Part shown: in pieces, positions 8,147 to 59,997 of the stretch | How positions within the stretch are numbered: position 1 is the first letter of the stretch | How the letters are laid out: every line of letters begins with the position of its first letter | NCBI GenBank assembly: GCA_002989075.1 | Contig: PSQN01000006.1 | Location: forward strand, 2,059,018 to 2,123,017 | DNA: 64,000 bases | Source: Arthonia radiata | Lineage: Eukaryota; Ascomycota; Arthoniomycetes; Arthoniales; Arthoniaceae | Reading direction: 5' to 3' | Notes under the pieces: model-generated | The model's database searches: none | The model's input: only the letters and a program-made list of their open reading frames with translations | What the model was told of the DNA's origin: nothing | Position numbers and translations under genes: made by a program

Positions 8147-9371
8147 ATGCTTTTCCCGTCTCTGCTTCTGCTCGCAGCAACGCTCTTGACCGGTAGTCCA
8201 AGCCCAGTCAAGCGGCAACAAGATGATTTCTTCTTTTACGACCTCGAAACGGCGCTGTCAGGTCCTTGTGATCTAGTAGAGGGCCCCGATGGCGCAGTGT
8301 GGGGCGAGGCGATCTTAGTCAACCACATTTTCAGGATAGACCCCATATCAGGAGACGTGGAGGAGTACCCTATCCCCTTCACAAACCCCATCACAGGCCA
8401 AAATACTACCTTGGACATTCGAAACGATCGGACGGAGTTCTCCTGCGCCATTCGAAATGGTGCTGATGGCAACCTGTATGCATCAAATGGTCTGCGAAAC
8501 CAGCTTGTCAAAATCAACCCACACACCAAAGATATTACTGTATTGACGCCGCCGCCATACAATCCGCTGGGCGACCTGCAGCCATTCAACGACTTGTATA
8601 CCGCATACGACGGTATCTACCTTACGCAAACGTCAGCAAACCTCATCACGTTCTTCAAATTCGAGGATCAAAGTTTCAAGAACATCCCGATCCCGACGCC
8701 AGCCAGCTTCCCTCTCGGCGTGTTTGTGGAGCGGACAGGCTTGGTCATTGTCTGCGAGTTAGTTGGCAACAAGATCATCGTTCTGGATCCCAAAACAGAA
8801 GATCTAAAGGAATACTCTTTGCCAGAGCCGCTGCAAAGTCCGGCGGTCGTACGTGCGCAGACAGACGATGGTAAGTCTCAGAGTATTCACACATGCCATA
8901 CTGCAGCCTTTTCTGGTTGTGTGAAAGGCCCTTTCGCCGGCGGTCTTACTTTCAGCTTCGTTTCTGAATCAAAATGCTGCTAGTGTGGCTGCTGTTCAGA
9001 AATTTTATACTAACATTTCGCTTGCAGGCCTTGTCTGGTACTCGCTCTTCACCGGAAATGGCGTCGGCAGTATCGATCTCACCACAGGGGAGACGAAGGT
9101 ATATCATACGGGGGCGCTAGGAGCACTAGGCGCGGAGGACACCATTGATGGGGATGGCAACATCTGGGAGTCGTTCTTCACTTTTAATGCGCTTGGAAAG
9201 TTCAATCCGGAGACGAAAACTTTCAGCTTCGTCAACTTTCCGGACTCACTGCTCAATCGTCCTATTGGCATTCCGCCATACATCGACGTGGCCTGCAACT
9301 ATGGGCCAGAGAACGCGATCTGGTTCACGGATGTGTCGCATAATCGGGTAGGGAAGTACGTGCTGCCATAG
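8147..9371 (+). CDS. Secreted virginiamycin B lyase-like (Vgb/SMP-30 type) beta-propeller protein
   Basis: Exons 8147-8870 and 9028-9371 around a 157-nt intron with GTAAGT donor and TACTAAC...TTGCAG acceptor (phase 1); 355 aa. Residues 1-18 form a signal peptide (MLFPSLLLLAATLLTGS), followed by a possible Kex2 KR site. The body repeats the streptogramin-lyase propeller pattern: GPCDLVEGPDGAVWGE, NGADGNLYASNG, GIYLTQTSANLITFF, DTIDGDGNIWESFF and ENAIWFTD. Bacterial Vgb linearises streptogramin B antibiotics, but fungal relatives are mostly uncharacterised secreted proteins, so substrate and activity remain open. Confidence 0.8.
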
Positions 9372-51751: not shown

Positions 51752-53129
51752 TTATCCGGCGCCAACTCTAACCTTTTTCTTGCGCTCTCTTGCTTTCTGT
51801 TCACGTCGCCGCTTCTTTTTCGGGCTCTCATACAGCATAGCTTTGTGACGACGCTCTTCCGGACCCGCACTCTCGCCCTTATGGCCTTCATCCCAACATC
51901 GATCACAATACAGCTCGCCATCACAATCAATGCACTGTAATGTCGCTTCATCGAGACAGATGTCACACCAAGTCTCCACATCCTCATCTGATGGTACAGA
52001 AGGGTCTGACTGTGGCTTTGAAGTGGGTTGAAACGTAGGCGCTGCGGGCAGTGCGAAGGAAGCTTGCTCTTCTTGACTAGAGCGCTACGTGTCAGCACAA
52101 CGCGTTCTTCGAGAGCGCATACACGAGTTTGTTTTGCTATCATAACGAGCTTGTTCGGACAGCGCCTCCATCCGAACGACTAAAAGCCCCTCAGAAAACA
52201 GCAGAAGAACCGGCGTAAGGGCTGTACACTTGCCTAGAGCGATACGTGTTAGCACAATGCATTTGCGATAGCACACACGTAAAAGTTTTTAGCTTCTAGA
52301 ATGGGCGTATTCGGACAGCGCCTCCAAGTCAATGACTGAAAGCCCCTGAAGGAACAATAGAAGAAACAGTGTGGAGGCTGTAGACTTACCTTTGATCGGG
52401 TAGCTTTGGGAGCTCAGTAGGTGCAGCTGGAAGAACTAGATCATGTAACTTTCCGTTCTCTTCGCCATCAGCCATGCCATTTGATTGCCTTTGAGACTTA
52501 TCAAGTGCATCGTCGTCACCGTCTTGTACGCCGAGGGTAACCTCTTCCAATGCTTTTCGAACGAAATCGTCAGCTTCGCTGTCCTCATTAGTCCCTTCTC
52601 CGTTCGCGGCTTGAACGACATCTTCGACAACTTTCGCGTCTTCATCAAAATCTTTAGCGTTCTTATCGTATGATTGAAGGTTCCCATAGTTCGAAGCCTC
52701 AGTATCCTCTGACTCGGAACGCTTTAGCGCTTCCTTGGCTTCCTTCATCACACCACGCGCATGCCCGGCTTCGACCCTTTCTCTTCTCCAATCTTGAACA
52801 CCTACAGCACTTTTCACATCACCCAATTGAAGGTCAGCTAACACGTCTTCTAAGGAAGCACCAGTCTCATCGAACGTATCGAGGTCGTCGAATTCGGCGT
52901 CTAAAGCCTCCGAATGTGCTACCGCTCCTACTGCGGCTGGGTCATTGCATGTATGCCCGCCGCTCAAAGCAGCAAAGCGAGTCGAGAGATCAGACGCTGC
53001 GTCTCTTGATTGCGATTGGGACCCTTTGTGCAGGTGGAGTAGAGGATTAGTGGGGCGTGCACTGAGCGAAGAAGGCTTCAAAGCGTTGAGCCTCTTCAAA
53101 AGGGAATTGATGTCGCTGTCTTCCCCCAT
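51752..53129 (-). CDS. ZFYVE19/ANCHR-like zinc-finger protein
   Basis: Exons 53129-52390 and 52076-51752 (phase 2), 354 aa. The start chosen is the ATG of MGEDSDINSLLKRLNALKPS; a non-ATG upstream extension is open but unlikely. The N terminus resembles the MIM-like start of abscission/NoCut regulators. The acidic middle contains an EFDDLDTFDE-type patch. The C-terminal B-box-like finger reads CDICLDEATLQCIDCDGELY then CDRCWDEGH, followed by a Lys/Arg-rich tail. Animal ANCHR delays abscission through ESCRT-III and VPS4; the fungal role is not established. Its only intron (313 nt) is two tandem copies of one intron unit (separate entry). Divergent from UBA3. Confidence 0.75.
52077..52389 (-). 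other. Tandemly duplicated intron (two units of about 157 nt)
   Basis: Unit A (52389-52234, 156 nt) begins GTAAGT and ends CGCTCTAG. Unit B (52233-52077, 157 nt) begins GCAAGT and ends CGCTCTAG. They align over their whole length at roughly 70% identity with a perfect shared core GGAGGCGCTGTCCGAA, and meet with no base between them. Removing both restores the frame. Confidence 0.8.
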
Positions 53130-59288: not shown

Positions 59289-59997
59289 GTCCTGATTCGT
59301 CGAACTGTGATGAGCGTGTCATAGCCGGCAAGATAGATGCATAGAGAGATGGGTAGCCATGGAAAGGCAGCAATGAAAGCCCCTGAACAGGAGGTGTTCA
59401 ATCAGCGGCATGTGATCTAGATGAATGAGCAATCAGGCACTTCGGGTTCCTTTTGTTGAGCTGTACACACGGCGATGGTCTACGAGACAGTGGACAAGGC
59501 TACGGGAACAACGTCAGTACAAATGTTCCTGTACAGTGTCCATACCAGTTACAACAGCATCATAACGGATTGTTCTGGAGCAGTGCCGCCAGACGGGCCG
59601 CTAAGAGGATCGCAAAGACGCACAGATTCAAAGGCGTGGATGCTCTGAGACTTACCGTGCTCAGAGCAGTGTCAGTGACGGTCATCGCGAAGAATACAGT
59701 CAGGCCTGCACTAGCCCTACATGCCCTCGCATAGGCCTCTGAGCCTTAACTCATGATGTTATTATGGGTGCCTTCGGCATGATATAGCACTTTGGACTTG
59801 TTCATGCCATTTGGTTCATTGCTCAGTGCTCTATGATGCCTTCGAGATCATACAATCCAAATGCTGTTCGATCCAGTTCCTGCGTAGTAATGTTCGTAAT
59901 ATCCCAGCGCCTTGCTAATGCCACAATCGTTGATACTTCTTCCGCCGCCATCGCTACAGCCTATCTCTTTCCTCGAGGATGACTTTTGCTGAACGGC
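59289..59997. other. Convergent 3' intergenic, no supported gene
   Basis: About 700 bases between the 3' ends of the complex I gene and RSC4. The frame at 59453-59734 has no motif. Nothing else seen. Confidence 0.4.

Follow-up and report, generated by a model that had tools for sequence, protein, structure and literature searches.

A probable two-unit introner in a predicted ANCHR-like gene and flush introner chains in the genome of Arthonia radiata

Introduction

Stable folds have been ascribed to fungal introner-like elements, and near-identical copies and seamless insertion without target-site duplication to those of Dothideomycetes. The Dothideomycete representatives, as set out in parts of one published account, are numerous spliceosomal introns alike in sequence, spread over unrelated genes with several to a gene, with parallel gain near existing intron positions and pairs lying 145-626 bp apart (PMC4457414). 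For ascomycete introner families, the available parts of a second account report neither terminal inverted repeats nor target-site duplications, and its main text uses none of the words tandem, head-to-tail or dimer (PMC9860276). Two-unit introns are described from Hypoxylaceae, where [D1,2] stwintrons have multiplied across genes by seamless insertion (excerpts of PMC8469720, PMC9024468 and PMC12403724). No report of flush introner chains was recognised among the open-licence papers that literature searches listed. Here we describe a 313-nucleotide (nt) intron of a predicted ANCHR-like gene of Arthonia radiata, located in a stretch of 64,000 nt (assembly GCA_002989075.1, contig PSQN01000006.1, positions 2,059,018 to 2,123,017; hereafter the window). 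This intron, dimer D1, is very probably a pair of introner units and one of many such chains. Two or three units often stand flush on one strand as a chain in this genome, an observation that reaches beyond an earlier note made from the letters of this DNA.

These units share some properties with each of the described systems. Like the Dothideomycete elements, in the parts of that account that bear on the matter, they are similar introns spread across unrelated genes, and like the ascomycete introners of the second account, as far as its available parts describe them, they form a family of sequence-similar introns. Unlike the Dothideomycete elements, the copies are older (mostly 70-80% alike) and lack a stable fold, and units stand flush where the Dothideomycete pairs are spaced. 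The Hypoxylaceae stwintrons, for which the excerpts report one-step removal, are also complex two-unit introns, but one unit lies inside the other and splits its donor, and terminal inverted repeats are present, whereas the chains here have whole splice sites and mixed types. Recursive splicing in Drosophila reportedly takes place at zero-length exons (ratchet points), where acceptor and donor are juxtaposed within long introns; that juxtaposition recurs here at a junction uniting two complete introner units.

Results

Dimer D1 occupies 52077..52389 on the minus strand of the window and consists of two alpha-type units (types are defined below). The 5′ unit, A (156 nt, 52234..52389), reads GTAAGTCT...CGCTCTAG from 52389 to 52234, has donor GTAAGT and acceptor TAG, and scores 148 bits against the alpha profile; the 3′ unit, B (157 nt, 52077..52233), reads GCAAGTGT...CGCTCTAG from 52233 to 52077, has donor GCAAGT and acceptor TAG, and scores 139 bits. 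The spacer between them is 0 nt, and at the inner junction, TAG/GCAAGT (52228..52236, minus strand), the acceptor of A is joined to the donor of B. The likely branch points, CTAAC in A (52248..52252) and CTGAC in B (52091..52095), both on the minus strand, fall within the most conserved block of the family. A core, GGAGGCGCTGTCCGAA, is found at 52310..52325 in A and at 52154..52169 in B (minus strand). Aligned with each other, the units are identical at 115 of 159 columns (72.3%), with a score of 66 against a maximum of -9.5 in 300 shuffles of B. The earlier note had described 156 + 157 nt, about 70% alike and without a gap, opening with GTAAGT and then GCAAGT, ending identically and sharing a core, and all of this was confirmed.

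The host gene lies on the same strand, with a predicted exon 1 (52390..53129) open from an ATG and a predicted exon 2 (51752..52076) in frame with it that carries a B-box (PF22586, E value 1.4e-11). Joining 52390 to 52076 gives a single frame of 354 amino acids (aa), from 53129 to 51752, and stops arise when A, B or both stay in the transcript. From that frame D1 is predicted to be an intron, and the sole one of the gene.

Units like those of D1 are dispersed through the genome. When the 313 nt were used as a query against their own genome, at least 40 matches were found, five of them full-length and the others mostly covering one unit, and more members were added by searching with A, with B and with two other members. 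A profile (alpha) built from 33 aligned units gave 72 matches in the loci retrieved at that stage, of which three, at 18 to 20 bits, were later reassigned to other types. The consensus of the 33 units starts with GTAAGTCTACAGCCTCCACAC, contains an internal box, GGAGGCGCTGTC, and a branch-point-like block, TGTGCTGACAC, and ends with GCGCTCTAG; donor, branch-point block and acceptor are conserved among the aligned units. A second type was first spotted as a flush upstream unit beside C9:2191861 (C followed by a number denotes a contig), and queries with that unit and with a unit of an array on C10 yielded dispersed relatives. Three types can be distinguished, alpha (156 nt), beta (about 152-158 nt) and gamma (about 142 nt), with similar starts and ends. 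Unit numbers throughout are lower bounds, as only the best candidates were scored in the genome search.

With 72 alpha matches and with unrelated flanks at D1 to D7, the family exceeds a minimum of five like copies spread over different genes. Fungal introner-like elements are its closest kin, and we call the units introners in this broad sense, behaving as those elements do. We keep them apart from the Dothideomycete families because no stable predicted fold was found: the consensus energy of the 33 units is -0.22 kcal/mol, and z scores average -0.47, with 6 of 53 below -2; D1 scores -1.24. Nor are the copies near-identical, single units matching one another at a mean of 72.7% and a maximum of 94.9%. 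The earlier note's likening of the intron to introner-like elements therefore stands as regards many similar introns in unrelated genes, and fails as regards the Dothideomycete hallmarks of a stable fold and near-identical copies. In a frame test of 51 introns (units without a recognised donor or acceptor excluded; D10 and the first array unit entered as single), the joined flanks were open for at least 30 codons on each side in 34 in the sense orientation versus 20 in antisense, a ratio that does not establish coding-intron status for every copy; the longer frame was the sense one in 36 and the antisense one in 14.

Three loci show altered units or flanks. Well-preserved alpha units at C2:1481480 and C9:2239317 have lost the donor, and at the latter the acceptor is lost as well. 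These could be relics, or they could use shifted sites. Just past C12:577266, the 3′ exon side begins GCGAAGTCTACAGG, resembling the start of a second unit, which would be either the remnant of a deleted partner or chance.

Many units stand in chains. In the loci retrieved to that point, the three profiles recognised 128 units, with 66 alone and 25 chains, five of the latter being parts of the C10 array. The other 20, which lie outside it, contain 23 joins, with a gap of 0 in 19, +1 in one, -2 in one and a fused -25 in two. When the genome was scanned for the series branch point, acceptor, donor, 14 exact matches were obtained and none with a reversed control; six were known chains, and all eight others, once retrieved, were flush chains as well. 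Together with a further fused pair (L108), the chain loci outside the array number 29: alpha-alpha 7, alpha-beta 1, alpha-alpha-beta 1, gamma-alpha 3, gamma-gamma 7, three gamma 2, beta-gamma-gamma 1, beta-gamma 1, fused beta-gamma 3 and gamma-beta 3. None of the 128 units was seen to be nested, and within 400 nt just one neighbour lies on the opposite strand, inside the array. Same-strand gaps below 400 nt are exactly 0 in 19 of 32 cases, or in 16 of 29 once three pairs found by junction pattern are subtracted. Likeness to seeds of the three types was the basis on which loci were collected, and 13 came through junction patterns (4 + 1 + 8), so that the frequency of chains is biased upwards. 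A scan based on splice-site grammar for single units abutting other introns gave nothing upstream and one proposal downstream, at C9:2191861, which was discarded by eye; the flank there, also read by eye, revealed the C9 gamma-alpha pair.

The window dimer has close relatives that are dimers themselves. D1, D2 (C14:915642) and D3 (C6:472043) carry the same two sub-types in identical order; the three B units make up a clade (support 99/98.7), and so, with moderate support (88/86), do the three A units. A search with D1B recovered its sister B units at 88% and 85%; the next match of near-full length was D4A, which also sits in a dimer, at 76%, and one partial match of 93 nt reached 80%. The flanks of D1 to D7 have no mutual similarity, so these are not gene duplicates, and the presence of two sister dimers in unrelated genes indicates that the D1 dimer was copied whole.

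Most chain-mates are not siblings. A clade of D1A and D1B was rejected by the approximately unbiased (AU) test (p 0.0019), as was one of D4A and D4B (p 0.014); judged from sequence, the two D1 units belong to different sub-lineages of the dispersed intron family. By identity, the D1 mates rank 41st and 13th of 64, and across D1 to D6 the chain-mate is never first in 12 of 12 rankings (rank 3 to 60 of 64). In ten gamma-gamma chains the mate is the best match of no unit; the nearest exceptions are L116, where it is third or fourth, and one L094 unit, for which it is third. D4A and D5A are 93.6% alike whereas D4B and D5B are 71.2% alike. This difference suggests that members of a young sub-family settled on the 5′ side of two distinct, older units.

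Judged from coding context, a whole chain can act as a single intervening sequence. A Pfam domain is restored across the join in four genes. Removal of the 312 nt of D2 restores ATG22 (PF11700 over residues 11-370, join past residue 70, E value 4.1e-104), removal of D5 an ABC_ATPase match (residues 5-83, join past residue 68), and removal of the gamma-beta pair of L111 an Ank_2 match (residues 65-154, join past residue 88). In the fourth, a 595-nt intron of an MFS gene contains gamma units of which two are well preserved (127 and 132 bits) and a third is weak (21 bits), with perhaps a fourth (16 bits, E value 0.12); with all 595 nt removed, a 341-aa frame has MFS_1 over residues 4-323, the join lying past residue 264 (E value 9.5e-26). 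In the 3′ part of this gene (L109, C1:2356080-2356879), the next predicted intron, read by eye, seems to have more gamma- or beta-like stretches. Seven of the eight newly found chains were tested for frame (L115, whose end is uncertain, was left out), and five (L111, L113, L114, L116 and L117) are open for at least 46 codons on both sides once the chain is removed, while L118 and L112 have 37 open codons on the left. No Pfam match was obtained after chain removal for D4, D6, D7, L032, L113, L114, L116 or L118, and L117 has one downstream of the join and not across it.

The inner junctions differ in state. Inner sites are intact in D4, D6 and D7, and in the 14 pattern matches, where they are intact by selection. 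The inner donor is weak in D2 (GTCAGT) and D5 (GTAGGT) and is a GC donor in D1; inner sites are dead in D3 (TAA), in D8 (GTCTAC) and in the fused joins, and the frames of D3 and D8 are weak. In the MFS intron the donor is lost at the third join. The GC donor is private to D1 when compared with its sister dimers (GTCAGT and GTGAAG); a unit at C2:2361983, with joined flanks open for 54/106 codons, also has one. Removal would either take the whole chain, between its outermost donor and acceptor, or proceed one unit at a time. Where the inner junction is intact either order is possible, and neither is forced, since a zero-length exon leaves each unit its own splice sites.

A fused beta-gamma form bears on this point. 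Its beta part is missing the final stretch with branch point and acceptor, and its gamma part the donor GT, so that, as far as its letters tell, removal in a single step is the only way. At L032 it measures 266 nt with a frame open for 165/94 codons, and its dead join means that an intact inner junction is not needed there. The form occurs with a single junction at four sites, one of them inside the C10 array, and is best explained as having been copied as a dimer; the search pattern was derived from three known sites, and only the fourth was newly found.

The array itself (C10:1219250-1223405; L069, L073 and L074) is a long series of decaying units, flush or nearly so, with four alpha units followed by beta and gamma, and with one unit inverted. 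Its joins include alpha-beta and beta-gamma; two alpha neighbours are mutually first-ranked and two beta neighbours likewise. It adjoins a stretch of 14-35% GC. Within it, at about 527-703 of L073 (C10:1220376-1220552), is a coding-like piece whose translation, judged by eye, looks like a candidate aldo/keto reductase.

The window holds two further units, both single, of beta type and probable introns: one at 8871..9027 on the plus strand (64 bits; joined flanks open for 301/113 codons) and one at 59500..59655 on the minus strand (110 bits; 30/33 codons). Two weak matches (10.0 and 11.7 bits), comparable to one reversed-control match, were left out.

Discussion

Taken as a whole, we consider it likely that D1 is a two-unit introner, removed together, and that chains form by insertion at the edges of existing introns. 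That these edges are struck as splice junctions is a narrower proposal, to which we give an even chance. A new copy would insert exactly at the 5′ or the 3′ edge of a resident intron, and the simplest route would be for an excised unit to enter a transcript by reverse splicing at a splice junction, followed by a return to DNA. Reverse splicing at a splice junction would yield same-sense, flush joins on both sides. More tentatively still, the splicing machinery may insert excised introners at the junctions of intron-bearing transcripts, with accretion unit by unit on either side and with multimers that are themselves mobile. Both edges seem to be targets, since the less diverged unit is the 5′ one in D4 (end branches 0.013 vs 0.11) and D5 (0.042 vs 0.16), and probably in D7, and is probably the 3′ alpha in gamma-alpha pairs, judged by best matches. 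Random insertion would offer about 75 positions within a unit for each edge, and chance as the source of the flush layout was tested and set aside.

A somewhat unlikely alternative is that insertion takes place at the level of DNA and prefers AG/G targets, intron edges being struck for their sequence and not as splice junctions. Of 40 single units, 35 follow an exon that ends in G and 24 one that ends in AG, and AG/G is found at 13; a 2-nt AG duplication at the 24 sites could not be told from the AG end of the unit itself. This preference is weak, and the need for a splice site could explain it. AG/GT occurs at just 3 of the 40 sites, neither a terminal inverted repeat nor a longer duplication was apparent in the flanks inspected by eye, and a 64-fold restriction of sites would give about two flush pairs per 1,500 units (a rough extrapolation to the genome from the four units in the 64-kb window) against the 29 loci.

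It is improbable that a transcribed tandem array such as that on C10 is the source, with spliced-out multi-unit pieces inserted as chains. The array carries alpha, beta and gamma serially with alpha-beta and beta-gamma joins, whole-dimer copying is seen at D1 to D3 and at the fused sites, one of which the array contains, and unit 2 of L116 is 85% like an array unit. Against this, the array units are mostly decayed, the orders gamma-alpha and gamma-beta were not seen in the array, and D4A and D5A cluster in the tree with dispersed single units and not with those of the array.

The earlier note had suggested tandem duplication. On this view slippage, or unequal exchange at the AG/G repeats of its ends, would have doubled one resident intron where it stood. 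A head-to-tail, flush arrangement fits such an origin, and local duplication does occur in the array, as its mutually first-ranked neighbours attest. For D1 and D4 it meets the rejected sister clades and, over D1 to D6, the failure of any mate to rank first, and it cannot yield mixed-type chains; we regard it as very improbable for the chains. The note's other suggestion, a twin intron, gains from two introns sharing one intervening sequence and from the one-step removal known for stwintrons (excerpts of PMC12403724), but a [D1,2] stwintron, whose internal intron splits the external donor, requires at that point a donor minus its first G, as the available parts of the literature have it, whereas D1 has side-by-side units and the whole donor GCAAGT after the acceptor of A, by which this origin was ruled out for D1 as next to impossible.

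The favoured reading, of a two-unit introner removed together and of insertion at intron edges, also has observations weighing against it. A stable fold such as fungal introner-like elements are said to have is missing, and no Pfam match in the 354-aa spliced product crosses the D1 join, the B-box falling downstream. Sisterhood was not rejected for D5A/D5B (AU p 0.22) or D6A/D6B (0.43), and the case for D4 and D5 having arisen separately is one of identity, a clade of D4B and D5B not being rejected (p 0.118). The frame at L112 is longer with only beta removed (50/80 codons) than with the chain removed (37/80), and if one unit is kept in L114 the frame is still open for 37/51 or 59/42 codons. 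Frames are weak at D3 (10/11), D8 (28/30), D9 (20/27), C9 (24/19), L092 (29/19), L094 (3/63), L100 (8/37), L101 (11/57) and L102 (20/20), in part because very short flanks were retrieved.

Chains that are flush, same-sense (outside the array), non-nested and of mixed sub-lineage bear on whether fungal introners move via RNA or DNA, being a footprint of insertion that points to splice junctions as targets. They also provide natural settings in which to test zero-length exons and to compare one-step with stepwise splicing, and offer a possible route from short introns to long ones. If the splicing machinery does add excised introners at such junctions, many longer introns would be stacks of former introners.
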